Assembly (NCBI GenBank): GCA_947451475.1 | Contig: CANFZC010000002.1 | Coordinates: 27,508-91,507 of the forward strand | Length of the DNA stretch: 64,000 bases | Source: Flavobacteriaceae bacterium | Lineage (GTDB): Bacteria > Bacteroidota > Bacteroidia > Flavobacteriales > Flavobacteriaceae | Direction of reading: 5' to 3' | Part shown: positions 2,209-58,475 of the stretch, in pieces | How positions within the stretch are numbered: the first letter of the stretch is position 1 | Layout: each line of letters opens with the position of its first letter | Notes under the pieces: generated by a model | What the model was told of the DNA's origin: nothing | The model's database searches: none | What the model saw: only the letters and a program-made list of their open reading frames with translations | Made by a program: the position numbers and the translations under genes

Positions 2209-2252
2209 CACCCTTATGCACTATACGACAGAAGTCGCTTACCTACATGCTG

Positions 2253-3323
2253 TTACTGAAAAACCAAACTCACGGAGGTACCTAATTGGGGTTGGCTTTC
2301 AATCGCTATTTTAGCCTTGATTTTTTCGGCAAGGTTTTGCACTAATTGCATGCCCATGCCCATGCCTATTTCATTATTTGTGCCGTGCGTTGAGGCATAA
2401 TTATGGTTTAAAATCGCCTGTACTTTATTGGAGGTCATCCCGACACCATTATCGGTAACTGTAAGGGTATTGTTTAGAAAACTTACTGTTATTTTACCAT
2501 TGGAAGGGGTGAATTTTACAGCATTTGAAATAATATTACGGACAATGATAGTGACTATTTCTGCATCTGAAAACAAAGTCGTATGCTCGTCAATAGCAAC
2601 CTCAACGGTTATGTTTTTATCTGAATAAGCATTTTTATACACTACAAAAAGCGCTTCGATTGTCGCTTTTACATCGATACTTTTAGAATTAACTTGAATT
2701 GCATTAAAATTAGATTTTGACCACACTAAGGTAGTTTCTAACATTTCTAAAACTTGCGTAGACTGACGGTTTATTTTTTTAATAAAGGGCGTAAAATCAT
2801 CTTGCGACATATTGTGTTCCAATGCCACCGCTGAAATATTGGTTAGATTGGAAATAGGAGCTCTTAAATCATGTCCTAACACCGATAACATTCGGTCGTT
2901 GTTGCTATTGATGTTCTTTAGTTCCTCTTGTAATTGGATTTCTTTATCAATATCAACAAAAGCCACAACATGTAAACTATCAAGCACAGAAGCTTTTATT
3001 TCATACCATTTTTTAGAACCATTTTTGCAGGTCACTTGGGATTTCTTTTTAACAAAAACTTTCCCCTCTTGCTTGGAATTAATTTCCTCTTCATCCCAAT
3101 CACTGATCACGGTATCTCGATAGGATTCTACTGGGTAGGCGTGCTCGTACCACGCTTGTAAAGTGGGTATTTCTTGCAAGGTATATCCAATTTCATCTTT
3201 GAACTTTTCATTTAAAAAAGTATTTAAATGGACGCCATTGATCACTTCAGCGATGATGAAGGGGTAGGGAAGAAAATCGGCTACATGGTGAAGGTCAAAT
3301 CTTGAAATCTTGTGCTTGCTCAT
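2253..3323 (-). CDS. PAS-domain sensor histidine kinase
   Basis: A 356-residue kinase with no membrane segment. Residues ~5-130 form a PAS/PAC sensor (YPFIIAEVINGVHLNTFLNEKFKDEIGY; later KNGSKKWYEIKASVLDS). A HisKA dimerisation helix contains the phospho-accepting His in SVLGHDLRAPISN (~residue 153). The HATPase domain at ~250-356 has an N box (NIISNAVKFTP), a G1 box (DNGVGM) and a glycine-rich lid (GMGMGMQLV). The closest family is the Flavobacterium group of soluble PAS kinases. No response regulator is adjacent, so the partner is unknown. It lies 50 bases downstream of the ABC-F gene on the same strand and may be read from the ABC-F promoter. Confidence 0.88.
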   Translation of the reverse strand: MSKHKISRFDLHHVADFLPYPFIIAEVINGVHLNTFLNEKFKDEIGYTLQEIPTLQAWYEHAYPVESYRDTVISDWDEEEINSKQEGKVFVKKKSQVTCKNGSKKWYEIKASVLDSLHVVAFVDIDKEIQLQEELKNINSNNDRMLSVLGHDLRAPISNLTNISAVALEHNMSQDDFTPFIKKINRQSTQVLEMLETTLVWSKSNFNAIQVNSKSIDVKATIEALFVVYKNAYSDKNITVEVAIDEHTTLFSDAEIVTIIVRNIISNAVKFTPSNGKITVSFLNNTLTVTDNGVGMTSNKVQAILNHNYASTHGTNNEIGMGMGMQLVQNLAEKIKAKIAIESQPQLGTSVSLVFQ

Positions 3324-3373
3324 ACAATCAAATTAACTATTCAAAGGACATTAAGATTCAGACAATTTAGTTA

Positions 3374-5005
3374 TTATTTCTCTATTTCTTTTAAACTTAA
3401 CATTTTTTTGTATTCCAAGAAGCCTTTTATGTCTTCAAAATGTTCTTTGACGCGTTTGTGTCCGAATTCGAAAACTTTTTCGGCTAAACCGTCTAAGAAA
3501 TCACGATCGTGGGACACTAAAATCAGAGTACCATCGAAATCCTTTAGTGCATCTTTGATGATGTCTTTGGTTTTCATATCGAGGTGATTGGTCGGCTCAT
3601 CGAGGATTAAAACATTTACTGGCTCTAAAAGTAATTTTATCATGGCTAAGCGGGTTCTTTCTCCACCCGAAAGCACTTTTACTTTCTTTTGAACATCATC
3701 CCCACCGAACATAAAAGCCCCAAGGAGGTCCTTTATTTTGGTTCGAATATCTCCAACGGCTATTCTGTCAATCGTTTCAAAAACAGAAATCTCACCATCT
3801 AATAAAGCCGCTTGATTTTGGGCAAAATAGCCAATTTGGACGTTATGCCCTACTTCTAGTTTGCCTTCATACTCGATTTCTTTCATCATGGCCTTAATCA
3901 TGGTGGATTTACCTTCCCCATTCTTTCCGACGAAGGCTACTTTTTGCCCTCTTTCGATTACCATATTGGCATCTTTAAACACGATATGGTCCCCGTAGGC
4001 TTTTGATAAATGTTCGACTACTATAGGATATTGACCGCTTCTTGGCGAAGGAGGGAATTTAAGCCTTAGTGCAGAATTATCTACTTCATCTACCTCTACC
4101 AATTCAAGCTTTTCTAACATCTTGACGCGGGATTGTACCTGTAGCGTCTTAGAGTAGGTCCCTTTGAAGCGTTCGATGAATTCCATGTTTTCGGCAATCA
4201 TTTTTTGCTGTTCCTCATAGGCCTTTTGTTGGTGCGCTCGACGGTCTTTTCGCAGTTCGAGGTAATGCGAATATTTGGCCTTGTAATCGTATATTCTGCC
4301 CATGGTCACTTCGATGGTACGATTGGTAATATTATCTACGAATGCTCTATCGTGGGAGATTACCATTACGGCTTTGGCTTGATTGATTAAGAAATCCTCT
4401 AACCATTGAATACTTTCCATATCCAGGTGGTTAGTCGGCTCATCTAGTAAAATCAAATCGGGTTGTTTTAAAAGGATTTTAGCTAGTTCGATTCTCATGC
4501 GCCATCCTCCCGAGAATTCCTTGGTAGGGCGATTAAAATCTTCTCTTTCGAAGCCAAGTCCTTTTAGAACTTTTTCCACTTCGGCTTCATAGTTGACTTC
4601 TTCAATGGAATAGTATTTCTCGCTTACTTCCGATACTCGTTCGATTAACTTCATATAGTCATCGCTTTCATAATCGGTGCGAATAGTAAGCTGTTCGTTG
4701 ATTTCATCCATTTCGGCTTTCATTTGGAACACTTCTGCAAAGGCTTTGGAGGTTTCCTCCATTACGGTGCAGTCATCAGCGGTTAATAAGTGCTGAGGCA
4801 AGTAGGCAATGACGGCTTCTTTTGGGGCAGAGATGTTTCCACGAGAAGGTTTATTTTGACCTGCAACAATCTTTAAAAGGGTGGATTTACCGGCACCATT
4901 TTTACCCATTAAGGCAATTTTATCCGTTTCGTTGATGGCAAAGGTTACTTCGCTAAATAGTGTGGTGCCGCCAAATTCAACGGCTATATCGTTTACAGTT
5001 ATCAT
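3374..5005 (-). CDS. ABC-F family ATP-binding protein (ribosome-associated)
   Basis: A 543-residue protein with two tandem ABC ATPase domains and no membrane segments, which defines ABC-F proteins. Domain 1: Walker A GKNGAGKST (~residue 36), signature FSGGWRMRIELA, Walker B LILLDEPTNHLD. A ~60-90-residue charged, basic linker (KDRRAHQQKAYEEQQ) follows. Domain 2: Walker A GKNGEGKST, signature LSGGERTRLAM, Walker B LILDEPTNHLD. Members such as EttA, Uup and YdiF bind the ribosomal E site and rescue or tune stalled ribosomes; some give ribosome protection against antibiotics. The length and the absence of a long C-terminal coiled coil fit the YdiF/YkpA-like group rather than Uup. A consensus promoter lies just upstream. 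Confidence 0.92.
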   Translation of the reverse strand: MITVNDIAVEFGGTTLFSEVTFAINETDKIALMGKNGAGKSTLLKIVAGQNKPSRGNISAPKEAVIAYLPQHLLTADDCTVMEETSKAFAEVFQMKAEMDEINEQLTIRTDYESDDYMKLIERVSEVSEKYYSIEEVNYEAEVEKVLKGLGFEREDFNRPTKEFSGGWRMRIELAKILLKQPDLILLDEPTNHLDMESIQWLEDFLINQAKAVMVISHDRAFVDNITNRTIEVTMGRIYDYKAKYSHYLELRKDRRAHQQKAYEEQQKMIAENMEFIERFKGTYSKTLQVQSRVKMLEKLELVEVDEVDNSALRLKFPPSPRSGQYPIVVEHLSKAYGDHIVFKDANMVIERGQKVAFVGKNGEGKSTMIKAMMKEIEYEGKLEVGHNVQIGYFAQNQAALLDGEISVFETIDRIAVGDIRTKIKDLLGAFMFGGDDVQKKVKVLSGGERTRLAMIKLLLEPVNVLILDEPTNHLDMKTKDIIKDALKDFDGTLILVSHDRDFLDGLAEKVFEFGHKRVKEHFEDIKGFLEYKKMLSLKEIEK

Positions 5006-5031
5006 ACTATATCTAGTTTTTTTTGAAGCGG

Positions 5032-5061
5032 CAAAGATAGTTTAATTTGAAGATGTTCCAA
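5032..5061 (-). promoter_or_regulatory. Bacteroidota-type promoter of the ABC-F gene
   Basis: On the minus strand, TTG - N19 - TATCTTTG matches the -33/-7 consensus (TTG ... TAnnTTTG) at ideal spacing, 27 bases from the start codon. Short near-direct repeats of AATTTGAAGAT run through the -33 side. Confidence 0.7.
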
Positions 5062-5127
5062 TTTGAAGATTTGAAGATTTAACAGTAGGGAAGTTTAATT
5101 AAGAAAAGAAAGCTTGTTAATTATCTT

Positions 5128-5135
5128 TATTTTTG
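5128..5135 (+). promoter_or_regulatory. Probable -7 element for the MFS transporter gene
   Basis: TATTTTTG matches TAnnTTTG and lies 46 bases before the ATG at 5182. No TTG is found at standard -33 spacing, so this is a weaker or activator-dependent call. Confidence 0.4.
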
Positions 5136-5181
5136 TGGTTTAATAAATGTACAATCTAGTAAAGACTGACAATTACAGCCT

Positions 5182-6375
5182 ATGCCTCCAATAGAAGCAA
5201 AGTTTAAAAAAAGTTATCATACCCTTAAAAACAACTACTTAAAGCGGGTTCGCTTAGCGACCTCTTTATTTTTCTTTGGAATGGGTTTTAGTTTTGCTAG
5301 CTGGGCCAGTAGGATTCCGGATATTAAATCGATGTTGCATTTGAGTGAGGCTTCCTTAGGAACACTCTTGTTTGCGTTACCGCTGGGCCAATTAGTAGCG
5401 ATGCCTTTTTCGGGTAAATTGGTGACCCGTTATGGGAGTCGGCTAACGAGTTTTATCTGTTTATTGTTGTATGCTGGGTGTTTGCCTTTAATCGGATGGG
5501 CAACCGTCCAATGGCAGTTAGCTTTAGGATTATTTCTATTTGGATTAACGGGGAATGTATGTAACATAGCGGTGAACACCCAAGGTGTTTATACCCAACA
5601 ATTATTTGATAAACCCATCATGGGATCGTTTCATGGTTCGTGGAGTTTGGCAGGTTTCTTTGGCGCCCTAGTAGGCTTGGTTTTTATCGGTTTTAAGTTG
5701 AGTCCGTTTCACCATTTTATGGTTGCTTTTTCCTTTGTGGTTTTACTTATTCTGACTAATGCAAAGTATATCATTAAAACCAAGGCAAAAGCATCGGCAC
5801 ATAAAGATCATTATTCCTTTTTCAAGAATCCCGATAAACCCTTGTTGCTACTGGGGGTAATTTGTTTTTTTGGGATGAGTAGTGAGGGCATCATGTTTGA
5901 TTGGAGTGGTGTTTATTTTAAAGAGATTATTAAGGCGCCAGGTGCTTTGGTTGCTTTGGGGTATACTACCTTTATGATTAGTATGGCATTGGGGCGCTTT
6001 TTGAGTGATTTTTTGGTAGCGCGTTATGGAACACGGAAGGTTTTATTATTGAGTGGTTTGATAATCTCATTTGGATTGTATAGTGCGGTATTGTTTCCCT
6101 ATCTAGTTCCTTGTATGGTCGCTTTTATGTTGGTTGGTTTTGGTGTTTCTAATGTGGTTCCCATTATCTTTAATGCTGCAGGCAACCATTCAAAGGTACC
6201 TACAGGAATTGCATTGACGGTAGTGAGCAGTATCAGTTTTCTTGGTTTTTTGATTGGTCCCCCTTTAATTGGTTATATGGCGGAAGTTACAAGTTTGCGC
6301 TATTCCTTTGCTTTTATTGGGCTGTTTGGGGTGGTTATTAGTATACTAGTTAGTCGGTTAAAACTATTTACCTAG
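5182..6375 (+). CDS. MFS transporter (YbjJ-like)
   Basis: A 397-residue major facilitator permease with about twelve hydrophobic segments. The N-terminus is cytoplasmic, followed by FFFGMGFSFASWASRIPDIK, the typical start of the YbjJ-like MFS branch. The loop between helices 2 and 3 carries the MFS signature-like GKLVTRYGSR, repeated in the second half as DFLVARYGTRKV. Substrates of this branch are poorly known, so none is assigned. The next ATG is already inside helix 1, so the ATG at 5182 is the best start. The gene stands alone: it diverges from the ABC-F gene and converges on the DUF2007 gene. Confidence 0.85.
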   Translation: MPPIEAKFKKSYHTLKNNYLKRVRLATSLFFFGMGFSFASWASRIPDIKSMLHLSEASLGTLLFALPLGQLVAMPFSGKLVTRYGSRLTSFICLLLYAGCLPLIGWATVQWQLALGLFLFGLTGNVCNIAVNTQGVYTQQLFDKPIMGSFHGSWSLAGFFGALVGLVFIGFKLSPFHHFMVAFSFVVLLILTNAKYIIKTKAKASAHKDHYSFFKNPDKPLLLLGVICFFGMSSEGIMFDWSGVYFKEIIKAPGALVALGYTTFMISMALGRFLSDFLVARYGTRKVLLLSGLIISFGLYSAVLFPYLVPCMVAFMLVGFGVSNVVPIIFNAAGNHSKVPTGIALTVVSSISFLGFLIGPPLIGYMAEVTSLRYSFAFIGLFGVVISILVSRLKLFT

Positions 6376-6548
6376 ACCTTGCTCCCTTACAATATAGCTA
6401 CTCCTTCGAAAATACATTAGCGTACTTCTAACGCTACTTTCGCTTTATGCTGGTTCTTGATTTAACGTTGGTGTCATTCAGCAAATGATTATAAGGAAAG
6501 TGGTCCTATAACCAGCTTACTTTTTAAGTAAAGAGAAACTAAGGATTT

Positions 6549-6592
6549 CAGTACTACATCAGTACTATATCAGTACTATATCCATGCTATAA
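6549..6592. repeat. Tandem 11-bp repeat (about four units)
   Basis: Three near-identical units of CAGTACTATAT (the first has one change) and a degenerate fourth, in the 261-base convergent gap between the MFS gene and the DUF2007 gene. Nothing else in that gap (6376-6636) is recognisable. A second array with the same period lies at 58670-58735. Confidence 0.8.
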
Positions 6593-6636
6593 CTATAGCT
6601 TTTTACCAAGTAAAAAACGACTAAAAAAAGACTTGA

Positions 6637-6852
6637 TTAAATACTCAATCGGAATTCTTCAATCACGGGGCTGGCTTTTCCGTAATCGACTTCCATGATG
6701 AATAATTCAACGGGTTTGGCTGTTTGAATACTCGGTAGTACGTTGGCTTGATTGTTAGCTCGCAGTACGACATTGATATTGGCTTCTTCCAGTTTTTCTT
6801 TTAAGGTAACGGCTAAGATTTCTTCTCCTGAAAATATTTTGATTAGTCCCAT
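6637..6852 (-). CDS. DUF2007 small protein
   Basis: A 71-residue soluble protein (start MGLIKIFSGEEILAVTLKEKLEEANI, end VDYGKASPVIEEF). It matches the DUF2007 pattern: one ferredoxin-like unit beginning with a hydrophobic strand, then a helix in which the second residue set reads TLKEKLEEANI. The family is annotated as putative signal-transducing proteins related to PII folds, but no ligand is known for this subgroup. It is the last gene of a minus-strand run after the DEAD-like gene, separated from it by a 7-bp tandem repeat. Confidence 0.7.
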   Translation of the reverse strand: MGLIKIFSGEEILAVTLKEKLEEANINVVLRANNQANVLPSIQTAKPVELFIMEVDYGKASPVIEEFRLSI

Positions 6853-6857
6853 TTTTT

Positions 6858-6906
6858 GAGTTATGAGTTATGAGTTATGAGTTATGAGTTATGAGTTGGG
6901 AGTTTA
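6858..6906. repeat. Heptanucleotide tandem repeat between two co-directional genes
   Basis: Five exact copies of GAGTTAT followed by GAGTTGG and GAGTTTA, seven units in all. They fill nearly the whole gap between the stop of the DEAD-like gene and the start of the DUF2007 gene, covering the expected ribosome-binding region of the latter. Copy-number change by strand slippage would alter that leader but not either reading frame. Confidence 0.85.
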
Positions 6907-6908
6907 TC

Positions 6909-7544
6909 CTATTCTTCTTCGACTTCGAAGAATAGGGGTTCGATCATGATTTTATCGGCTAGTACTTCTACTCTTTCTGTGATTTGCGCGCAGAAAAATA
7001 GGCGTTGTGTTTTTTCGATGCTCATGGAGAGGCGTTGCACTATGGCATCGTGGCGTAATCTGAAAAGGATATCGGCATCATCTACTACCAGCATTTTGAT
7101 GGTATTGATGTTGAAGCCAGCCGAAGAAAACATGGCATTGATTTTACTGGGGGTCCCTATAAGTACATCTAAGCCCATAGAGATAATATTTTTATCGTAG
7201 TCGATATCGCCTTTATCGTGTACGCCGAGAATACTCAAATCAGTATAGGTGCCGTATTTTAAAAAAAGCTCTTCCATTTCTAGTACTTTTTCTTTGCTTT
7301 CCACGATGATTAAGGCACGGGTACTTTCTCCCATAGTTTTCTCCATACGTTGGATTACATTGATTACAATGGCGGTGGTTTTTCCGCTACCTGGGGGAGA
7401 TTGAATAACAGCATCGGCACCACTTTTGATGGTTGAAAAGGTTTCCAGTTGCATCACATTAGCTTCGGTCAAATCGTTTTCGACTAATGCTTTTTGCAGG
7501 CTAGGGTTTATTTTTTTTAGAATCATATTTTGTTTATTGGCCAT
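6909..7544 (-). CDS. Single-RecA-domain DEAD/DEAH-box-like protein with degenerate motifs
   Basis: A 211-residue protein covering only the first RecA lobe of a DEAD-box RNA helicase. Visible motifs are a Q-motif-like segment (MQLETFSTIKSGADAVIQ), Walker A SPPGSGKT (motif I), GTPSKI (motif Ib) and VDDAD in place of the DEAD motif II. Motif III SAT reads CAQ. The protein ends in EVEEE just after the lobe, so the second lobe (motifs IV-VI) is absent, and no remnant of it is seen in the downstream sequence. Without lobe 2 it should not unwind RNA processively. It could be an ATP-binding regulator or an RNA chaperone. The ORF is intact, which argues against a pseudogene. Confidence 0.75.
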   Translation of the reverse strand: MANKQNMILKKINPSLQKALVENDLTEANVMQLETFSTIKSGADAVIQSPPGSGKTTAIVINVIQRMEKTMGESTRALIIVESKEKVLEMEELFLKYGTYTDLSILGVHDKGDIDYDKNIISMGLDVLIGTPSKINAMFSSAGFNINTIKMLVVDDADILFRLRHDAIVQRLSMSIEKTQRLFFCAQITERVEVLADKIMIEPLFFEVEEE

Positions 7545-7636
7545 TGATGCACGAATAAATTAGGTAGCATTAATGGATATTAGGGAGTCGGGCACTGCGT
7601 TTTACAACAGACGTTGACTCATTATGGAAAACTCAT

Positions 7637-8800
7637 TTATTTACTAGCGAATAGGGTTACATCGGTTTGTGAAATTTCGGTTCCTCCGAGTATGATTAGT
7701 CGTTCCACTACATTCCGCAGTTCGCGTATATTCCCTGTCCAGTCGTATTCTTGTAAAAGTTTGATGGCATCTTTGGAGAACGACTTGGTTGCATTTCCTT
7801 GTTCTTCTGCAATTTTTATGGCAAAATGTTCCACTAGAAGCGGGATATCATCGCGGCGATCGTTTAGTGACGGAACTTTGATTAAGATCACCGCTAGGCG
7901 GTGGTATAAATCTTCACGGAAGCGTCCTTCTGCGATTTCTTTTTTCAGGTCTTTGTTGGTTGCCGCTACGACGCGGACATTGATTTTGATGTCTTTGTCG
8001 GCCCCTACTCGTTGGATTAAACTCTCTTGTAGGGCTCGTAATACTTTAGCTTGTGCGGAAAGGCTCATGTCACCGATTTCGTCTAGGAAAATAGTTCCCC
8101 CATCGGCAGCTTCAAATTTACCAGCGCGGTCTTTTACTGCGGAGGTAAAGGCCCCTTTGACGTGACCGAATAATTCGCTCTCAATTAATTCAGATGGGAT
8201 AGCCGCACAGTTGACTTCGATCATGGGAGCATTGGCTCGTTCGCTTTTTTCGTGAAGTTGGTGTGCTACTAGTTCTTTTCCGGTACCGTTAGGTCCTGTA
8301 ATTAAAACGCGGGCATCGGTTTGTGCGACCTTTTCAATCATTACTTTGATTTGGTTGATGGGTTCGCTCTCCCCTATGATTTCGTAGTTTTTGGAAACCT
8401 TTTTCTTTAGGATTTTATTTTCTACTACTAGTTGTTTTTTATCGAGTGCGTTGCGCACGGTATTGAGCAGGCGGTTTAAATCGGGTGGTTTAGAAATGTA
8501 ATCAAAAGCCCCTAGACGCATGGTATTGACCGCAGTTTCTAGGTCGCCGTGACCGGAGATCATGACCATAGGGATTTCGGGTTTGATTTTTTTAACTGCC
8601 TCAAGGAGTTCTTCCCCATTCATTTTGGGCATTTTGATATCGCACAATACCAAATCGTAGTCTTCGTTTTTGATTTTCTCGAACCCTTGTTTTCCATCTT
8701 CGGCTTCGTCTACTTTGTAGGTATCGCTTTCTTCAGAGAGAATTTTGACTAATACTCTACGGATGGCGGCTTCGTCTTCGATGATTAATATTTTGGACAT
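7637..8800 (-). CDS. NtrC-family response regulator (receiver + AAA+), no DNA-binding domain
   Basis: Residues 1-120 are a receiver (ILIIEDEAAIRRVL, phospho-Asp in LVLCDIKMPKMNG, conserved Lys in SKPPD). Residues ~135-380 are a sigma-54 activator AAA+ domain with Walker A GPNGTGKE, the GAFTGA loop written GAFTSA, Walker B GTIFLDEIGD and the R-finger region. The protein stops about 20 residues after WTGNIRELRNVVERL, so the Fis-type helix-turn-helix of NtrC is missing. It may act from solution or on another target. The track start at 8848 adds 16 residues with no counterpart in receivers; MSKILIIEDE at 8800 is the natural start. Confidence 0.9.
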   Translation of the reverse strand: MSKILIIEDEAAIRRVLVKILSEESDTYKVDEAEDGKQGFEKIKNEDYDLVLCDIKMPKMNGEELLEAVKKIKPEIPMVMISGHGDLETAVNTMRLGAFDYISKPPDLNRLLNTVRNALDKKQLVVENKILKKKVSKNYEIIGESEPINQIKVMIEKVAQTDARVLITGPNGTGKELVAHQLHEKSERANAPMIEVNCAAIPSELIESELFGHVKGAFTSAVKDRAGKFEAADGGTIFLDEIGDMSLSAQAKVLRALQESLIQRVGADKDIKINVRVVAATNKDLKKEIAEGRFREDLYHRLAVILIKVPSLNDRRDDIPLLVEHFAIKIAEEQGNATKSFSKDAIKLLQEYDWTGNIRELRNVVERLIILGGTEISQTDVTLFASK

Positions 8801-51053: not shown

Positions 51054-51854
51054 ATGAAAAAAGTTGCCCTTTTGACTTTATATTTTATTTTAGTTACCAG
51101 CGTAAGTGCTCAAAAAACTAAAAAAGACTACTTAGAATTAGCGAAAGAAGCTGGATATCATGAAGATTGGAACAAAGCCAAAACTTATTATACTAAAATC
51201 ATTGCGCTAAATCCTGAAGATTCTACAGCCTACTTTGAAAGGGCTATTTGTAAAGAAGGGCTTCATGATTATAAAGGAGCTATCGAAGATTATACTATTC
51301 AAGGAAAAATAAATCCTTCTGAACCTGATAATTTTTTCTTAAGAGGTAGAGACCGTCAACGAATCAAAGATTATAAAAATGCAATCTCTGATTATAATAA
51401 AACCATTGAAATGGAACCAGACAATCCGGATGCTTATCGATTTAGAGGGCAGATAAAGGACATCATGGGGCAAAAAAATGACGCCTTGAAAGACTATGAC
51501 AAAGCATTAGAATTAAAGCCCTATTCTGATGCATATTTCGATAGAGCGCTTTTAAACTATAATTTAAAAGCCTTAAATCCAGCTTTAAACGACCTGAATA
51601 AGGCAATAGAAATAGATTCTTTATTTGACGCTGCCTTTATGTATAGAGGATTGATTAAAATGACACAAAAAAAATACACAGAGTCTTTAAAAGATCTTAA
51701 TGCAGCGCTTAAAATAAGTCCAAAAAACAAGCTTTATTATTTGAAGAGAGGCCAACTTAAATTAGCCATGGGTCAAAAAGACGAAGCTTGTAAGGATTTC
51801 AATTTATATCAGAAATATGGTGGCTCTTTACCTAAAAAATATACATGTAAATAA
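51054..51854 (+). CDS. Secreted tetratricopeptide-repeat protein
   Basis: 266 residues from ATG 51054. A signal peptide (MKKVALLTLYFILVTSVSAQ) precedes about six TPR units from residue ~25 on, for example YTKIIALNPEDSTAYFERAIC and YNKTIEMEPDNPDAYRFRG, ending in EACKDFNLYQKYGGSLPKKYTC. It should be a periplasmic scaffold for protein-protein contacts. It precedes apbE by 8 bases, so they are cotranscribed. Many bacterial TPR proteins are assembly factors; a role in assembling the redox proteins coded nearby is inferred only from position. Confidence 0.85.
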   Translation: MKKVALLTLYFILVTSVSAQKTKKDYLELAKEAGYHEDWNKAKTYYTKIIALNPEDSTAYFERAICKEGLHDYKGAIEDYTIQGKINPSEPDNFFLRGRDRQRIKDYKNAISDYNKTIEMEPDNPDAYRFRGQIKDIMGQKNDALKDYDKALELKPYSDAYFDRALLNYNLKALNPALNDLNKAIEIDSLFDAAFMYRGLIKMTQKKYTESLKDLNAALKISPKNKLYYLKRGQLKLAMGQKDEACKDFNLYQKYGGSLPKKYTCK

Positions 51855-51862
51855 ATTCGGAT

Positions 51863-52864
51863 ATGAATAAATACCTTTTAGTACCGCTACTTTATTTAGT
51901 TTATTCCAACGTTTGTTATTCTCAACTTGAGTCGGCATCAATAGAGGGAGCCACTCAAGGGACAACTTATCATATTACTTATTTGGATACCAAACACCGG
52001 AATTTACAACCTGAGATTGAAAAAATATTAGTTGATTTTGATTTTTCTGTATCTACTTACAATCCATTTTCAATAATAACAAGAGTTAATCGAAATGATA
52101 ACGATGTAAAGGTAGACCACTATTTTAAAACTTGTTTTAAAAAAGCCAAAGAGGTGTGGAAAAACACGAATGGAGCCTTTGACCCCACCGTGTTACCGCT
52201 AACCAATGCGTGGGGATTTGGTCCTGGAAAGAAAGAGAAAATTGAAAAAGAAAAAATAGATAGTATTTTACAGTTTGTAGGCTTTAATTTAATTGAATTA
52301 AAAGGCGCTAGAATTATCAAAAAGGATCCTCGTGTTGCACTTGATTTTAATGCGTTTGCTCAGGGATATTCTGTGGATGTCGTTGCTGCTTTTTTAAACA
52401 AAAAAAATATAAAATCCTATATTGTTGAAATTGGTGGGGAGGTTTATGCTAAGGGAACAAATTTTGGCAAACCCTGGGAAATTGGATTAGAACAACCAAA
52501 AGACAACAAAGAGAGCATTAACCCCATTCTTGCCAAAGTAATTTTAAAAAATAGCGCTGTATCAACCTCCGGGAACAACCGTAGGTATTTTATAGAGGAT
52601 GGTGTAAAATATGCCCACCATTTAGACCCAAAAACCGGTTATCCTGCCAAAAACACATTGCTTACAGCATCTCTATTTGCCAAAGACTGCATTACTACAG
52701 ATGCTTATGCGACAGGAGTTTTAGTAATGGGACTAGAAAAAGCTAAAGTATTTCTAAGTGTTCATCCCGAAATCAAAGCTTTTTTAATTTACAGCGATGC
52801 CTCGGGCAACTATATGTTTTATAAATCTCCTGGTTTAGAATCTATAGTAACTGAACTGAAATAA
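51863..52864 (+). CDS. apbE: FAD:protein FMN transferase (ApbE)
   Basis: 333 residues with an N-terminal signal (MNKYLLVPLLYLVYSNVCYSQ). ApbE landmarks are IEGATQGTTYHITY at the start, the FAD-binding DFNAFAQGYSVDVV, IVEIGGEVYAKG, the STSGNNRRYF motif, HHLDPKTGYPA and DCITTDAYATGVLVMGLE with the catalytic Asp/Thr region. Flavin transferases attach FMN through a phosphoester bond to Ser/Thr of extracytoplasmic redox proteins such as NqrC and RnfG. No such classic target is in the window; the DUF2271-like protein 59 bases away is the candidate. Cotranscribed with the TPR gene. Confidence 0.92.
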   Translation: MNKYLLVPLLYLVYSNVCYSQLESASIEGATQGTTYHITYLDTKHRNLQPEIEKILVDFDFSVSTYNPFSIITRVNRNDNDVKVDHYFKTCFKKAKEVWKNTNGAFDPTVLPLTNAWGFGPGKKEKIEKEKIDSILQFVGFNLIELKGARIIKKDPRVALDFNAFAQGYSVDVVAAFLNKKNIKSYIVEIGGEVYAKGTNFGKPWEIGLEQPKDNKESINPILAKVILKNSAVSTSGNNRRYFIEDGVKYAHHLDPKTGYPAKNTLLTASLFAKDCITTDAYATGVLVMGLEKAKVFLSVHPEIKAFLIYSDASGNYMFYKSPGLESIVTELK

Positions 52865-52867
52865 AAA

Positions 52868-52893
52868 AAACAGCATCCAAAAGGATGCTGTTT
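52868..52893. terminator. Shared bidirectional terminator between apbE and the DUF2271-like operon
   Basis: An 11-bp stem AAACAGCATCC / GGATGCTGTTT with an AAAA loop, flanked by an A-run on the left. It ends both converging operons. Confidence 0.75.
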
Positions 52894-52922
52894 ATGTACT
52901 ATATAAGATGTACTAATTTCTT

Positions 52923-53720
52923 TTATTTATCCAATAAAACTTTATAGGTAGAAGTTCCATTATCATTGGTTACATTAATGATATATTCACCATTGGCATA
53001 ACTTGAAAGGTCAATTCTTTTCGATGACTTAGCATTCTCATCAGAAGAGATGTTTTCGTTATAAATAGTAGCACCTAAAAGATTCACTACTTTAACGTTT
53101 TTAACTTCATTTTTAAAGTTAAGATTAAACACTCCGTTGGATGGATTTGGATATACTACTACTTCAGGATTTAAGTTAAAATCAGCAATTGCTAAAGGTA
53201 CTGGAGTCCATGAGTATGACATTCCTGTAAAATTAGTATCTGCAGTTACTGGAGTTGAAGCTATTGCCGTTGGGCCTTTTGCGAAGGTAATATATTTAGT
53301 TGCTGTACCTGCTGTTCCATGATCCCATGTCTCTTGCACTGCTACTCTAAAATTTCCATCGGCTACAAGCACTCCAGAAACATTTTTACCATCCCAAGTT
53401 ACGGTAGTTGCTGCCATACTTGACAATGTTGATGTAGTTGTAATTCCTGTAACATTACCTGCCGCAGCGGTATTCCACGTAGGAAGGTGATTACTTTGAG
53501 TGTTTTTTCCTCTTACTAATAAAGATTTTACAAAGGTCCAAGTTGTACCTGTAGCGTTATATTCGATCCAAATTGCTAAACATCTTTTGGTTCCAGAATA
53601 TGTGGTCGAGTGTGTAGTTTGATTAACTGTAAAAGAAAAGGTTCCCGCCGTTTGACCTTTCACTGACATAGAAAGACATAGTAAAAAGGTTAATCCAAGT
53701 AATTTGTAATTTGTTTTCAT
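52923..53720 (-). CDS. T9SS-sorted DUF2271-like secreted protein
   Basis: About 265 residues (second ATG of an ATGATG start). Signal MKTNYKLLGLTFLLCLSMSVKGQ. Residues ~25-160 follow DUF2271: RCLAIWIEYNATGTTWTFVKSLLVRG, HLPTW, then VTGITTTSTLSSMAATTVTWDGKNVSGVLVADGNFRVAVQETWDHG. In DUF2271 the W-D-G after an S/T-G-A-T turn is typical; here the turn reads TGIT (residues ~92-95), one change from the flavinylation-type S/T-G-A-T. Residues ~190-266 are a type A T9SS sorting domain (VYPNPSNGVFNLNF ... YKVLLDK). It is thus delivered to the surface. DUF2271 assignment is by eye. Last gene of the five-gene operon. Confidence 0.75.
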   Translation of the reverse strand: MKTNYKLLGLTFLLCLSMSVKGQTAGTFSFTVNQTTHSTTYSGTKRCLAIWIEYNATGTTWTFVKSLLVRGKNTQSNHLPTWNTAAAGNVTGITTTSTLSSMAATTVTWDGKNVSGVLVADGNFRVAVQETWDHGTAGTATKYITFAKGPTAIASTPVTADTNFTGMSYSWTPVPLAIADFNLNPEVVVYPNPSNGVFNLNFKNEVKNVKVVNLLGATIYNENISSDENAKSSKRIDLSSYANGEYIINVTNDNGTSTYKVLLDK

Positions 53721-53738
53721 CAATTGTGGTATTTATAT

Positions 53739-54272
53739 TTATTTATTTTCTAATGCTAATTTAAAGTTGATTTTTGAAGTTTCTGCTAGTGTTTTTTTAG
53801 CAAGTGCTGGAACATCGATTTTATAGTCGGACAATTTGATAGTAAAGCTTCCAGCGATGGTTACTTTAGCTCCATCGTTGCCTACGGTTACTTTTGTTTT
53901 AACTTTATTGGTAACCCCGTGAATGGTTAAATCACCTTCGGCATCATAGCTGCCCGCTTTTCCTTCATAACCTAACACTTTTCCGTCAAAACTTGTTTTA
54001 GGAAACTTATCACTTTCCATGTAATTTTCATTGAAGTGTTCCTCCATTAAGGGAGACTTGAACTTGAATGATTTTACCATACCTTGAACTACTAGTTTTC
54101 CTGTGGTTTTATCAAAAATACTAGAAACGGTTTTGTTGTTTCCAATAACTTCATCTAAAGCTCCAGGTACTGTAGCGTCAAACTTAATCTCTCCCTCACG
54201 CGTTAACATTTTTTGAGAAAAAGTAACACCTCCTATTAAAAGTGCTATAACTAAAATTGCGATTTTTTTCAT
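53739..54272 (-). CDS. YceI-family periplasmic protein
   Basis: 177 residues. Signal peptide MKKIAILVIALLIGGVTFSQ. The mature part is the YceI lipocalin-like barrel: IKFDATVPGALDEVIGNN, VVQGMVKSFKFKSPLMEEHFNENYMESDKFPKTSF, GDLTIHGVTNKVKTKVTV and AGSFTIKLSDYKIDVP. YceI proteins bind polyisoprenoid or quinone-like lipids; the family occurs with cytochromes in several bacteria. It is the fourth gene of the minus-strand operon, 36 bases after the cytochrome-like gene. Confidence 0.93.
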   Translation of the reverse strand: MKKIAILVIALLIGGVTFSQKMLTREGEIKFDATVPGALDEVIGNNKTVSSIFDKTTGKLVVQGMVKSFKFKSPLMEEHFNENYMESDKFPKTSFDGKVLGYEGKAGSYDAEGDLTIHGVTNKVKTKVTVGNDGAKVTIAGSFTIKLSDYKIDVPALAKKTLAETSKINFKLALENK

Positions 54273-54308
54273 ACTATCTATTTTATTGTGGTATTTGGTT
54301 ACTATTGC

Positions 54309-54659
54309 TTACGGTTGGAATCCAGTATTTTTCCATTGTAAAATCAATTTTATTTTTGCTTTTGAAAGTGGAGCACCACCTTTGGGCATTGTTTTGGTAG
54401 TATCTATGTCTCTGATTGTACTTCCAAATTCCACGCTTTCTCTGATGGTGTTATAATCATAATATTCATTATAACCTCCTTGTGATGTATTCCCTTGGAA
54501 ATGACAAGTAGTACATTGACTATCAAACAATGGTTTAATATTTTTTTCAAAAGAAGGGTTTTCAACATATCCTCCAATTTCGTCATAGGTATGAGAATCA
54601 CACGAACTCCCTAGTACACTTATGAATACTACCGCTACTATTACTTTAAACTTTTTCAT
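54309..54659 (-). CDS. Mono-haem cytochrome c-like lipoprotein
   Basis: 116 residues. Signal MKKFKVIVAVVFISVLGSSC with a probable lipobox Cys at 20. One CXXCH haem site, SQCTTCHFQG, is followed ~50 residues later by TMPKGGAPLSKAKIKLILQW, whose Met-Pro is the usual distal axial ligand, so it is a small class I-like c-type cytochrome (the planctomycete-type cytochrome c shape). It would carry electrons at the periplasmic face of a membrane. Start and stop are tight to the neighbours (2-base gap to the barrel gene). Confidence 0.85.
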   Translation of the reverse strand: MKKFKVIVAVVFISVLGSSCDSHTYDEIGGYVENPSFEKNIKPLFDSQCTTCHFQGNTSQGGYNEYYDYNTIRESVEFGSTIRDIDTTKTMPKGGAPLSKAKIKLILQWKNTGFQP

Positions 54660-54661
54660 AA

Positions 54662-55528
54662 TTAAAATACTCTATACATGTTAAACCCAAAAAATATCCC
54701 TCTTTGTCCTTGGTCCCAAGTTCCTAAACCATTGGTAAAATAAGCAACGTCATTCATAGCTTGGCTATTAGAGAACAGCAATTGGAAGATATGACCTCCT
54801 GTGTCAATATCCATACCAATCGACAACGGATTGTGATATGGACTGTCTTTCATAGTGCTTAGACGGGCCGCATAATCCATATTAACACTAATTCTTTTAG
54901 ATACTTTTAGTCTACCACCAGCTGCTAGTAAGAATTGATCTTTCTTTTCTTCTGTTGGTTCGTATAAATTTTTGTGCACAAATATTGGGTCAATTTCTAA
55001 TGAAAACGACTCACTAACCTTCGTTGAAATCAATAACTGAGAAGTAAAAGCTAAACGATCTGAAAACTTTAATGCTGGATCTATTTCCTTTTTCAATGCA
55101 CTGTTGGCATCTACTGTATTGTATACTGCAATAGTGAATGGAAAACCATTTTCCATTTGATTTGCAATACGAAGTTTGGAAGCTAGCTCATAGGTCTTAT
55201 TATAGGTATGTCTGGACATTCCAAGAGACCACCAATTTGTTACTCCGTAGATACCACCAATTTTTGTGTAAGCCGCGTCTAAACCAAAGAAGTTTTCTAG
55301 ACCATTGGTACAATCTCCGAAACGGTGAGAGACTAAGAAATACCAATCATTTTTGGCTGGTAATTTAGTGGATTGAATATTACATATTTGTAATCCTTTA
55401 AATGCAGCGGAAGCCGCTACTTTTTCTTTTGGCGCTGAGTCGAGTTCTTTCATCAGATCGTCTTGTGCACTTGCTACATTGAAAGCAAATAACAAAAGTG
55501 CTGAACTCGCAATTTTAATTAATTTCAT
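54662..55528 (-). CDS. DUF5777-like outer membrane beta-barrel protein
   Basis: 288 residues. Signal MKLIKIASSALLLFAFNVASAQ. DUF5777 landmarks, as I recall the family, are AFKGLQICNIQSTKLPAKNDWYFLVSHRFGDCTNGLENFFGLDAAYTKIGGIYGVTNWWSLGMSRHTYNKTYELASK. The protein continues in alternating strands and ends in GIFFGFNMYRVF with a terminal Phe, as outer membrane barrels do. The family has no assigned function. In this operon it precedes the cytochrome-like gene by 2 bases, so it may be the conduit for, or outer-membrane partner of, that redox chain (inference). Confidence 0.8.
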   Translation of the reverse strand: MKLIKIASSALLLFAFNVASAQDDLMKELDSAPKEKVAASAAFKGLQICNIQSTKLPAKNDWYFLVSHRFGDCTNGLENFFGLDAAYTKIGGIYGVTNWWSLGMSRHTYNKTYELASKLRIANQMENGFPFTIAVYNTVDANSALKKEIDPALKFSDRLAFTSQLLISTKVSESFSLEIDPIFVHKNLYEPTEEKKDQFLLAAGGRLKVSKRISVNMDYAARLSTMKDSPYHNPLSIGMDIDTGGHIFQLLFSNSQAMNDVAYFTNGLGTWDQGQRGIFFGFNMYRVF

Positions 55529-55542
55529 TTTGACTTTTTTTA

Positions 55543-55947
55543 TTATTTATTAAGATTACATTGGTCCAATTTTAATTCACCTAGAAGGTCATCGTATCCT
55601 ACGACACGTCCTTTTATAGTTACCGCTTGCCCTTCTTTTAAAGAAGCATCTGCTGCTATTAAATTACAGTTAACGCTTTCATCTAAAATTACCTCCTTAT
55701 TATTAACAGAAGTGATGGTTCCTGATACTGCTACTGGTTTTTCTAGGTACTTTTTATTTGATGCTTCCGTATTGGCTGTGAATTCGGCTACAATATTTTT
55801 GGTTGTTATCGTGAACGCTGCGGCTTCAGATTGCACATCTCTTTTACCGTAACTGTACACTAAATAATTTTTTACATAAGGAAAAGCTACGACTCCTGCT
55901 ATCACTAGCAAAATAAGCACTACTACTATTTTATTCTTTTTTTTCAT
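55543..55947 (-). CDS. Membrane-anchored OB-fold protein (tRNA_anti-like)
   Basis: 134 residues. A single N-terminal membrane helix (KIVVVLILLVIAGVVAFPYV) leaves a ~110-residue extracytoplasmic part with an OB-type fold: EKPVAVSGTITSVNNKEVILDESVNCNLIA, then GQAVTIKGRVVGYDDLLGELKLDQCNL. It matches the tRNA_anti-like OB-fold family by eye. In Bacteroidota such small OB-fold proteins occur next to YceI/DUF5777 genes. Two Cys in the mature part could pair. First gene of the five-gene operon, with 14 bases to the barrel gene. Confidence 0.75.
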   Translation of the reverse strand: MKKKNKIVVVLILLVIAGVVAFPYVKNYLVYSYGKRDVQSEAAAFTITTKNIVAEFTANTEASNKKYLEKPVAVSGTITSVNNKEVILDESVNCNLIAADASLKEGQAVTIKGRVVGYDDLLGELKLDQCNLNK

Positions 55948-56273: not shown

Positions 56274-58475
56274 TTACAAATGCAATAAACCAAACGCATT
56301 TAGGGATTTAATGGATTTGGAGAACCAGAATAGTTCAAAGTCGGGAAACTGCGTTTCGAAATCGGCTTTTAAATGAGCAAAGGTAGGTTGGCTTTCCTTT
56401 AAGGTTGTTACATTATCTTTTTGAATTCTTATAGAATTCAAAGTTTTTAGGAGCCACTCCCCTTTGTCCTTCTCTATAGTAATTTCGATTGCGTCTTTTT
56501 TATCTTGAAACAGCAGGTGCATCATTTCCCAGGAGGTTCCTTTCTTGGATTTCGTAAAGACCTCAACTTCGGGTTGGTTTCCCAGCCAAATTACTTTGGA
56601 GGAAGGTTTTATTGAGAAGTACTCTTCTGTTTCTAGCGCCGATTGGATAAAATTGGGTTTTATCGTAGTTCCCGGGATTTTGAAATCGAACCACTCTTTT
56701 AAATCATAGTCTAGTCCGATTCCATGCATGAAGTTGAAGAGTGACTTTTTAAGTCCGAAGCTGAATTTATCGTGGTCTATTCCGGTTTTGTCTATGAATA
56801 GAACATCATTATTGGCAAAGGAAATCTCGTTGAGTTGCGGAATAACACCAAACTCTTCGGGATTCATTCCGACAGGACTATGAGCGGTCATGGCGAATTG
56901 GTGCCAGAAACCTGATTGAACGATACCTAATTCGAACAATTGACGAACCATTTCGAGGCTGTCTATGGTTTCTTGAACGGTTTGCGTAGGATATCCGTAC
57001 ATTAGATAGGCATGCACCATGATACCAGCTTCGGTGAAATTGCTTGTTACTTGTGCCACTTGCGCTACGGTAACCCCTTTTTTGATCAGGTCTAATAATC
57101 TATCGGATGCTACTTCTAATCCGCCGCTGACGGCTATACATCCACTGGCTTGCAGGAGCATGCAAAGGTCTCGAGTAAAGTTTTTCTCGAAGCGGATGTT
57201 GGTCCACCAAGTAACTGTTAGTTTACGTCTTATGATTTCTAGGGCAACTTCTCGCATAAGTGCTGGAGGCGCTGCTTCGTCTACGAAATGGAAGCCACTT
57301 TCTCCTGTTTGTTCAATAAGTTGTTCCATGCGATCGACAAGAGTCTTTGCGGCTATGGGTTCGTAGAGTTTGATATAATCAAGCGAGATATCGCAGAGGG
57401 TACATTTCCCCCAATAGCAACCGTGTGCCATGGTTAGCTTATTCCAGCGACCATCGCTCCAGAGGCTGTGCATGGGGTTGGCAATCTCGATTACCGAGAT
57501 ATACTGCTGCAGGGGTAAATCGGAATAATCAGGGGTCCCTACTTCGCTTTGTTTGTAATCAGGTTTTGAAGTCGAATTTAGATACACTACTTCGTCATTT
57601 ACAAGACAGAACGTTCTTTTAAATTCTTCTTGAATCGCTGGCTGTGTAATGGCTTGGTATAGTAATTCAATGGGGCGTTCGCCATCATCAAGTGTAATAA
57701 AATCAAAGAATTGGAAAACGCGTTTATCGTTTAGTTGGCGAAGTTCGGTATTTGGGAATCCGCCGCCCATGGCTATTTTTAGGGTAGGATGTTGTTCTTT
57801 CAGGAATTGGGCACAACGAAAAGCGCTGTAGAGATTTCCTGGGAAGGGCACTGAGAAGCACACCAATTTGGGTTGTACTTCCTTAATTCTTTCGCTTAAA
57901 ATCTGCAAGGCTATACCATCAATATAGGTCTTGTCGTATTGCAGGGAAGCGTAGAGTTCGTCAAAGCTATTGGCACTGCGTCCAAGGCGTTCGGCATAGC
58001 GGCTGAAGCCAAAGTTTTCGTCTACACATTCGATGATGAAATCGGATAAATCTTCTAGATATAAAGTGGCTAGGTGTTTGGCTTTATCTTGCATTCCCAT
58101 GGTACCGAAAGCCCATTCCATATCGTCTAATTGGTCAAATCGGGACGCTTCTGGGAGGAAGTTACCGCTACAGATTTGCCTTGCGAGGGTATGATTTTTC
58201 CCTTGTAGGAAAAGCATAACGGCCTCGATGGTATTGCTGTATACTTCGTGTAATTGTGCGATACGCTGTGCATTGGCTGATTGAGGTGCTGCTGCTGCTT
58301 TAAAAACGTCGACTAAGCCCTCTTTAGAAAACAGTTTGTTAATCACTTCGATTCCCAGGTCCATTTGATAGGATGGAATGTTTTTGGTATTGAGAAACCC
58401 TTTCAAATAGGCCGTTGCGGGATAGGGCGTATTGAGTTGCGTAAAGGGAGGCGTAATTAAGAGTAAGTCTTTCAT
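56274..58475 (-). CDS. B12-binding-type radical SAM protein
   Basis: 733 residues. Residues ~1-310 are a cobalamin-binding-type Rossmann region (LLLITPPFTQLNTPYPATAYLKGFLNTK; VCFSVPFPGNLYSAFRCAQFLKE; IAMGGGFPNTELRQLND). The radical SAM domain at ~340-580 has the cluster motif in HGCYWGKCTLCDISLDY, which is CX4CX2C rather than CX3CX2C, then FHFVDEAAPP, SGGLEVASDRLL and AYLMYGYPTQTVQ. A ~150-residue C-terminal domain has no clear match. Similar proteins appear to form a conserved family of unknown substrate. It is isolated, with its own promoter element, and no precursor peptide is apparent beside it. Confidence 0.8.
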   Translation of the reverse strand: MKDLLLITPPFTQLNTPYPATAYLKGFLNTKNIPSYQMDLGIEVINKLFSKEGLVDVFKAAAAPQSANAQRIAQLHEVYSNTIEAVMLFLQGKNHTLARQICSGNFLPEASRFDQLDDMEWAFGTMGMQDKAKHLATLYLEDLSDFIIECVDENFGFSRYAERLGRSANSFDELYASLQYDKTYIDGIALQILSERIKEVQPKLVCFSVPFPGNLYSAFRCAQFLKEQHPTLKIAMGGGFPNTELRQLNDKRVFQFFDFITLDDGERPIELLYQAITQPAIQEEFKRTFCLVNDEVVYLNSTSKPDYKQSEVGTPDYSDLPLQQYISVIEIANPMHSLWSDGRWNKLTMAHGCYWGKCTLCDISLDYIKLYEPIAAKTLVDRMEQLIEQTGESGFHFVDEAAPPALMREVALEIIRRKLTVTWWTNIRFEKNFTRDLCMLLQASGCIAVSGGLEVASDRLLDLIKKGVTVAQVAQVTSNFTEAGIMVHAYLMYGYPTQTVQETIDSLEMVRQLFELGIVQSGFWHQFAMTAHSPVGMNPEEFGVIPQLNEISFANNDVLFIDKTGIDHDKFSFGLKKSLFNFMHGIGLDYDLKEWFDFKIPGTTIKPNFIQSALETEEYFSIKPSSKVIWLGNQPEVEVFTKSKKGTSWEMMHLLFQDKKDAIEITIEKDKGEWLLKTLNSIRIQKDNVTTLKESQPTFAHLKADFETQFPDFELFWFSKSIKSLNAFGLLHL

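Follow-up and report, generated by a model that had tools for sequence, protein, structure and literature searches.

Between positions 51,054 and 55,947 of a 64,000-nucleotide stretch of DNA from a Flavobacteriaceae bacterium (contig CANFZC010000002.1 of GenBank assembly GCA_947451475.1; the whole stretch is called the window here), two convergent operons encode seven proteins that are considered probable parts of a redox module of the cell envelope. All seven open reading frames named in a preliminary description of this DNA, made from its letters alone, are present. The parts of the locus are as follows, by position in the window.

51054–51854, plus strand: TPR-repeat protein with a signal peptide (Pfam TPR_2, 86 bits), an accessory gene of the ApbE/DUF2271 variant.
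51863–52864, plus strand: ApbE, a flavin adenine dinucleotide:protein flavin mononucleotide (FMN) transferase of the DUF2271-dedicated clade (PF02424, 258 bits; cut-off 25.6).
52868–52893, no strand assigned: hairpin of 11 bp between the convergent operons, with a good terminator score on the minus strand only.
52923–53720, minus strand: DUF2271-like surface protein exported by the type IX secretion system (T9SS), a candidate FMN carrier (PF18962, 50 bits; DUF2271, 17.3 bits).
53739–54272, minus strand: YceI-family, lipocalin-like periplasmic protein (PF04264, 65 bits; cut-off 23.7).
54309–54659, minus strand: mono-haem c-type cytochrome lipoprotein (CTTCH, distal MPKG), assigned by its motifs and relatives.
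54662–55528, minus strand: DUF5777 outer-membrane beta-barrel (PF19089, 271 bits).
55543–55947, minus strand: membrane-anchored OB-fold (tRNA_anti-like) protein with a conserved Cys (PF12869, 49 bits).

The operons are as tight as first described (2 to 36 nucleotides). The TPR and ApbE genes are 8 nucleotides apart, and on the other strand the gaps are 18 (DUF2271–YceI), 36 (YceI–haem lipoprotein), 2 (haem lipoprotein–DUF5777) and 14 nucleotides (DUF5777–OB-fold), while the convergent ApbE and DUF2271 genes are separated by 58. A bidirectional terminator had been proposed for this last interval; the hairpin is real, but it scores as a terminator for the minus strand only, as its plus-strand side lacks a T-run. 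The assignments of ApbE, DUF5777, YceI, the T9SS tail, the OB-fold and TPR are all above the Pfam cut-offs. Two assignments fall short of them, the cytochrome with at most 18.9 bits and DUF2271 with 17.3 (cut-off 27.3), and these are therefore read with the help of their relatives.

The barrel family is widespread, being found in 152 of the 248 sampled genomes of the order. For the study of its neighbours, 62 DUF5777-anchored loci were taken order-wide, namely 60 sampled ones, the window and L003, which is a second copy in the window's own genome. The haem lipoprotein adjoins DUF5777 in 60 of these loci (53 by open-reading-frame calling and seven by direct translation; the idea that the seven lack it was rejected as a calling artefact), and YceI lies within 4.5 kb in 56. 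The co-occurrence of the three, which the preliminary description had set as a check, is thus borne out. The OB-fold gene is present in 34 of the 62, and its Cys is kept in 41 of 48 proteins. As described for the window, the lipoproteins combine a haem-binding motif with a distal Met-Pro, and CXXCH or CX4CH together with this ligand was found in essentially every locus. Some of them had appeared to lack the motif, which proved to be an artefact of the CXXCH pattern, for they carry CX4CH (CX5CH in L084). The N-terminal Cys of the lipid anchor is conserved in the alignment, and relatives exceed the PF00034/PF13442 cut-offs. Hence, DUF5777, the CXXCH lipoprotein and YceI form a real conserved unit.

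In L003 and L060, DUF5777 and the haem lipoprotein stand without YceI inside a cluster of iron–sulphur protein (FeS), NrfD and cytochrome genes, so that barrel and haem are paired in two distinct settings. The L003 cluster (2250–8454, contig C5) encodes a two-haem lipoprotein, a mono-haem lipoprotein, DUF5777, an FeS protein, NrfD, an Ig-like membrane protein and a cytochrome c, is flanked by haem-synthesis genes and an AraC regulator, and is a candidate quinol-to-envelope electron route. In L060, a protein of 396 residues with six CXXCH motifs (7345–8532), which has a weak MtrC/MtrF-like match and is above the cut-off for cytochrome c552, adjoins DUF5777, the FeS protein and NrfD. Near another DUF5777 module, a secreted-repeat lipoprotein is encoded (L056:8248–9852; PF03640, 245 bits).

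The linkage of YceI with a haem lipoprotein brings to mind a protective function. The module might guard the outer membrane against lipid peroxyl radicals, YceI carrying a quinone or isoprenoid that the c-type haem re-reduces and the surface protein serving as an extra electron donor or acceptor. In Burkholderia, the pair of BcnA (YceI) and LcoA (cytochrome b561) is believed to act in this way; YceI–cytochrome pairing is associated with peroxidation phenotypes, and YceI structures hold ubiquinone-8 or octaprenyl ligands (PMC9113575). The sole PDB sequence match of the window's YceI is BcnA itself (5ixh), but this match is weak (E 0.001). Moreover, the locus lacks a cytochrome b561 and the BcnA system lacks a surface-exported redox protein. 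The explanation, drawn by this analogy, is considered unlikely but is kept as a serious alternative.

Next to the core, there is a position for a T9SS-exported protein that is filled differently from locus to locus. The core operon closes with the DUF2271 gene in 14 module loci. A T9SS-tailed partner of DOMON type, preceded by an ankyrin gene, is found in 16 modules. These DOMON-type partners are related by a custom profile (PF03351 exceeds its cut-off in L068 but not in L048, and L036 has no Pfam match); one Met and one His are invariant in them. Met and His are the known ligand pair of haem b DOMON domains. In L053 and L054, the partner is a plastocyanin-like cupredoxin (PF00127 above the cut-off in L053), in which candidates for the copper ligands, His, Cys, His and Met, are present. 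The DUF5777 tree places 14 DUF2271 modules and three DOMON modules in one clade (100/100) with the DOMON modules nested, so that the slot has probably been exchanged more than once. No recognised T9SS redox partner lies near 40 of the 75 modules sampled; the slot is thus either dispensable or supplied by genes located elsewhere. The strongest sign in these data that the slot has a redox job is its use of three cofactor chemistries. Besides the ankyrin genes before DOMON–T9SS genes, a large ankyrin protein is encoded 5' of a canonical PepSY/DUF2271/ApbE set of Flavobacterium (L153:8155–10107), so that proteins with repeats are a recurring neighbour of surface redox proteins.

The same ligands bear on a proposal without an electron chain to the surface, in which DUF5777 serves as a channel for transport or assembly and the cytochrome and YceI assist it in transport. 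DUF5777 is known only as a barrel, a single haem makes a poor conduit, and FecI/FecR-type regulator genes were seen by eye upstream of several Flavobacterium modules. Yet the haem ligands are kept in the lipoprotein, as are the Met/His and copper ligands in the DOMON and cupredoxin partners, and a Crp-type regulator directly precedes 12 DOMON-type modules of one family (e.g. L068:5195–5830). This proposal is regarded as quite improbable. A protein of 844 residues, possibly a TonB receptor, is also encoded upstream of several Flavobacterium modules.

The surface protein of the window is supported as a T9SS-tailed relative of DUF2271, although the family name had been applied to a sequence that is itself below the cut-off. 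The relationship is carried by its homologues, PF10029 recovering 16 of the 21 close DUF2271–T9SS proteins (E ≤ 0.01; best 3e-11); in the rest of the window's genome, just one match of 12.6 bits was obtained. A model built from eight sequences (mean pLDDT, the predicted local distance difference test, 75) has an N-terminal beta-sandwich and a C-terminal sorting domain, with the motif loop at low confidence. In a fold search, the C-terminal tail resembled the T9SS sorting domain of NucA (8glk_D; template-modelling score 0.80 by target length). Flavinylation of DUF2271 at a [ST]GA[ST]-type motif has already been published (PMC8238504). Among 23 T9SS-DUF2271 sequences, [ST]GA[ST] stands at the aligned site in 13, with the full DxxTGAT in six, and the predicted acceptor Thr (T98 in the window) is invariant in all. 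The protein of F. aciduliphilum reads TGST, and that of L175 reads DASTGAT.

The protein is of restricted occurrence. In 85,462 species genomes that were scanned, three relatives of Flavobacterium type came up, at 95% (L102), 52% (L103, F. aciduliphilum) and 36% identity (L104), and in all three the OB-fold, DUF5777, haem lipoprotein, YceI and DUF2271 genes converge on ApbE. A search of 396 genomes of the phylum with the window protein gave weak matches only, and a domain profile of DUF2271–T9SS found, among 398 genomes of the order, one other genome, with a solo gene and no ApbE nearby. Upstream of the OB-fold gene, the window encodes a radical-SAM-type protein of 733 residues (56274–58475); such a protein likewise stands ahead of the module in L102, L103 and L104. 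A probable ApbE–DUF2271 fusion of the same class, judged by eye, has a TSAT site (L101:448–1944).

ApbE was surveyed in 200 Flavobacterium genomes, of which 159 were positive, and genomic contexts were fetched for a subset. The resulting tree of 96 proteins holds 21 linked to DUF2271, 53 linked to DUF3570 and 22 others. All 21 DUF2271-linked proteins form a single clade (support 100/100), and each of them has a T9SS-DUF2271 neighbour, against none of the 53 and none of the 22. The DUF3570-linked proteins are deeply separate from this clade, while NQR-linked ones (L118, L148 and others beside NqrC-F-like genes) are among its nearest relatives. The two genes are convergent in 20 loci and divergent in one, with the TPR gene 5' of ApbE in about half of the 21. 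Their adjacency persists across about nine far-side neighbourhoods; thus, shared synteny alone does not explain it. Every Flavobacterium module ending in a T9SS-tailed DUF2271 protein has the dedicated ApbE adjoining. The window's ApbE keeps the catalytic Ser, His and Asp (STSGN, YAHHLDP and TTDAYAT, aligned with relatives) of the triad described in PMC12052999. It is therefore supported, at the level of sequence and phylogeny, that ApbE is specifically tied to the T9SS-DUF2271 protein.

The preliminary description had treated the seven genes as one fixed module, and in this respect it was mistaken. Of the 62 DUF5777-anchored loci, the window alone has DUF2271 and ApbE, and the TPR, ApbE and DUF2271 genes are absent from the other 61. 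ApbE had on this count been taken for an accidental neighbour, an idea rejected once the analysis was anchored on DUF2271 and ApbE. The three genes are an addition particular to one clade, limited to a portion of the genus Flavobacterium.

Elimination offers a way to the substrate of this enzyme. A single ApbE is encoded in the window's genome and likewise in that of F. aciduliphilum, and neither shows a match to FMN_bind, NqrB/RnfD or DUF3570. In the remaining two DUF2271-module genomes, a second ApbE adjoins the DUF3570 gene. Service to NQR was rejected for the tested genomes, as none of the four has a match to NqrB or FMN_bind. Where a sole ApbE stands with no match to these substrate families, the foremost candidate for its substrate is the T9SS-DUF2271 protein. 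The window's own copy, whose motif is degenerate, may be flavinylated on this ground.

Taken together, the locus is read, with moderate confidence, as an envelope redox module, in which a core of OB-fold protein, DUF5777, mono-haem c lipoprotein and YceI is joined by an exchangeable, T9SS-exported surface cofactor protein. In the proposed mechanism, the precursor of the DUF2271-type beta-sandwich would enter the periplasm via Sec, where the adjoining ApbE would esterify FMN to the acceptor Thr (T98 in the window copy). The modified protein would then be taken, folded, to the cell surface by T9SS. Electrons may pass between the lipid-anchored haem c and the surface cofactor, at or across the outer membrane, and no direction is implied. 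DUF5777 would act as a scaffold or channel, and YceI as an isoprenoid or quinone carrier by its likeness to known YceI proteins (PMC9113575). Complex formation, the flow and direction of electrons and the roles of YceI and the barrel are what we infer. A bolder version, advanced only tentatively, is that Bacteroidota plug a fixed core into swappable surface proteins (haem b DOMON, type-1 copper cupredoxin or flavinylated DUF2271) and so move electrons between periplasm and surface without a multihaem wire, perhaps with a quinone carried by YceI.

Several points weigh against the redox module. A single haem cannot span the outer membrane, which makes the crossing step the weakest link, and the structure model of DUF5777 is unusable (pLDDT 28 from four sequences). 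The elimination of substrates covers only the FMN_bind, NqrB/RnfD and DUF3570 families, and the window's genome is 92% complete, so that the absent substrates may be an assembly gap, though the F. aciduliphilum isolate agrees. The remaining points concern the flavin motif and the occurrence of ApbE and DUF2271 away from the core, and each of them favours an explanation of its own.

In the window, the motif reads G-I-T-T-T-S-T98, that is, TTST in place of TGAT, with Asp, Gly and Ala all changed, and L102, 95% identical, reads TTTT. According to a review, single G-to-A or A-to-V changes in the motif leave about 50% flavinylation (PMC12052999). The tie between ApbE and the surface DUF2271 protein holds in 21 of 21 cases of the clade, but flavinylation is less certain for the window's own copy. 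The protein may have lost flavinylation in this lineage and may now be a plain surface beta-sandwich, ApbE being kept for another substrate; the N-terminal domain matched only generic Ig-like sandwiches in the fold search. This loss is judged improbable. The catalytic positions of ApbE are intact and its gene still adjoins that of DUF2271, the acceptor Thr is kept, and no match to FMN_bind, NqrB or DUF3570 is present in the genome. In addition, single substitutions lower labelling but do not abolish it, and an Asp-to-Ala change has a minor effect (PMC12052999).

The second explanation is that the locus holds two independent neighbours, the DUF5777/cytochrome/YceI core and a mobile ApbE–DUF2271(–TPR) pair that makes a surface flavoprotein with a function of its own. 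The pair does occur away from the core in L186, L194, L195 and L196, the core stands without DUF2271 in 61 of the 62 loci, and solo DUF2271–T9SS genes are found in L210 and in L105–L108. In these last, which are uncultured Bacteroidales, the protein has TGAT or TGST, no ApbE is nearby and a conserved gene for about 416 residues stands beside it. Against this, 14 module loci have DUF2271 at the end of the core operon (in the window, 18 bp separate it from YceI), and a comparable slot is taken in other loci by T9SS proteins of DOMON or cupredoxin type. Independence of the two is accordingly given a low probability. The envelope redox module with an exchangeable surface protein is preferred, and the earlier interpretation, a chain of seven products moving electrons between a lipid or quinone pool, a periplasmic haem and a surface flavin protein, is partly supported.

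Taken singly, ApbE, DUF2271 flavinylation, YceI–cytochrome pairing and T9SS export are already known. The literature searched, mostly without subscription journals, has no mention of DUF5777 and nothing relevant on YceI with DOMON or on YceI with T9SS and a cytochrome; for ApbE together with type IX secretion, it gave only work on Fur in Riemerella, in which ApbE is mentioned once. The DUF5777/haem/YceI core, the T9SS-DUF2271 protein with its dedicated ApbE clade and the swap of cofactors in one slot were not found there. The analysis suggests an undescribed way of carrying out electron chemistry at the cell surface of these bacteria, with a flavin that is here probably attached by ApbE. If true, a barrel family of about 60% of the sampled order gains a redox role, flavinylated proteins gain a T9SS route to the Bacteroidota surface, and nature offers, in the exchange of haem, copper and flavin in one slot, an experiment on electron transfer at the surface. 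The module also gives testable pairs, such as ApbE with DUF2271–T9SS of F. aciduliphilum, DOMON–T9SS and cupredoxin–T9SS.

Among known systems, MtrCAB-type porin–cytochrome conduits likewise have genes for a cytochrome and a redox partner at the surface alongside that of an outer-membrane barrel. No sequence relation of the module to them was found; there is one haem per lipoprotein (a single CXXCH in the window locus) rather than a multihaem wire, and the surface partner is DUF2271, DOMON or cupredoxin. BcnA–LcoA shares a YceI lipocalin encoded with a cytochrome, whereas here the cytochrome is a c-type lipoprotein, Pfam finding no cytochrome b561 among the seven window proteins, and a barrel and a T9SS surface partner are added. 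The NQR-linked ApbEs are near the window's enzyme in the tree, but the four DUF2271-module genomes tested gave no match to NqrB or FMN_bind. The DUF3570–ApbE systems (PMC8238504), which are the most frequent setting of ApbE among the Flavobacterium loci sampled (53 of 96), also pair ApbE with an adjoining extracytoplasmic substrate, but of another family and with an ApbE of a deeply separate clade. The PepSY-like DUF2271/ApbE systems (PMC8238504) differ in that the window locus has no PepSY_TM or DUF4198 gene, with no match to the PepSY family among its seven proteins in Pfam, and in the T9SS sorting tail of its substrate; the canonical set in L153 (DUF2271, 123 bits) has an ApbE of another clade. 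What they share with the T9SS-DUF2271 family is a DUF2271-type domain, a [ST]GA[ST] site, an extracytoplasmic location and a dedicated ApbE next door.

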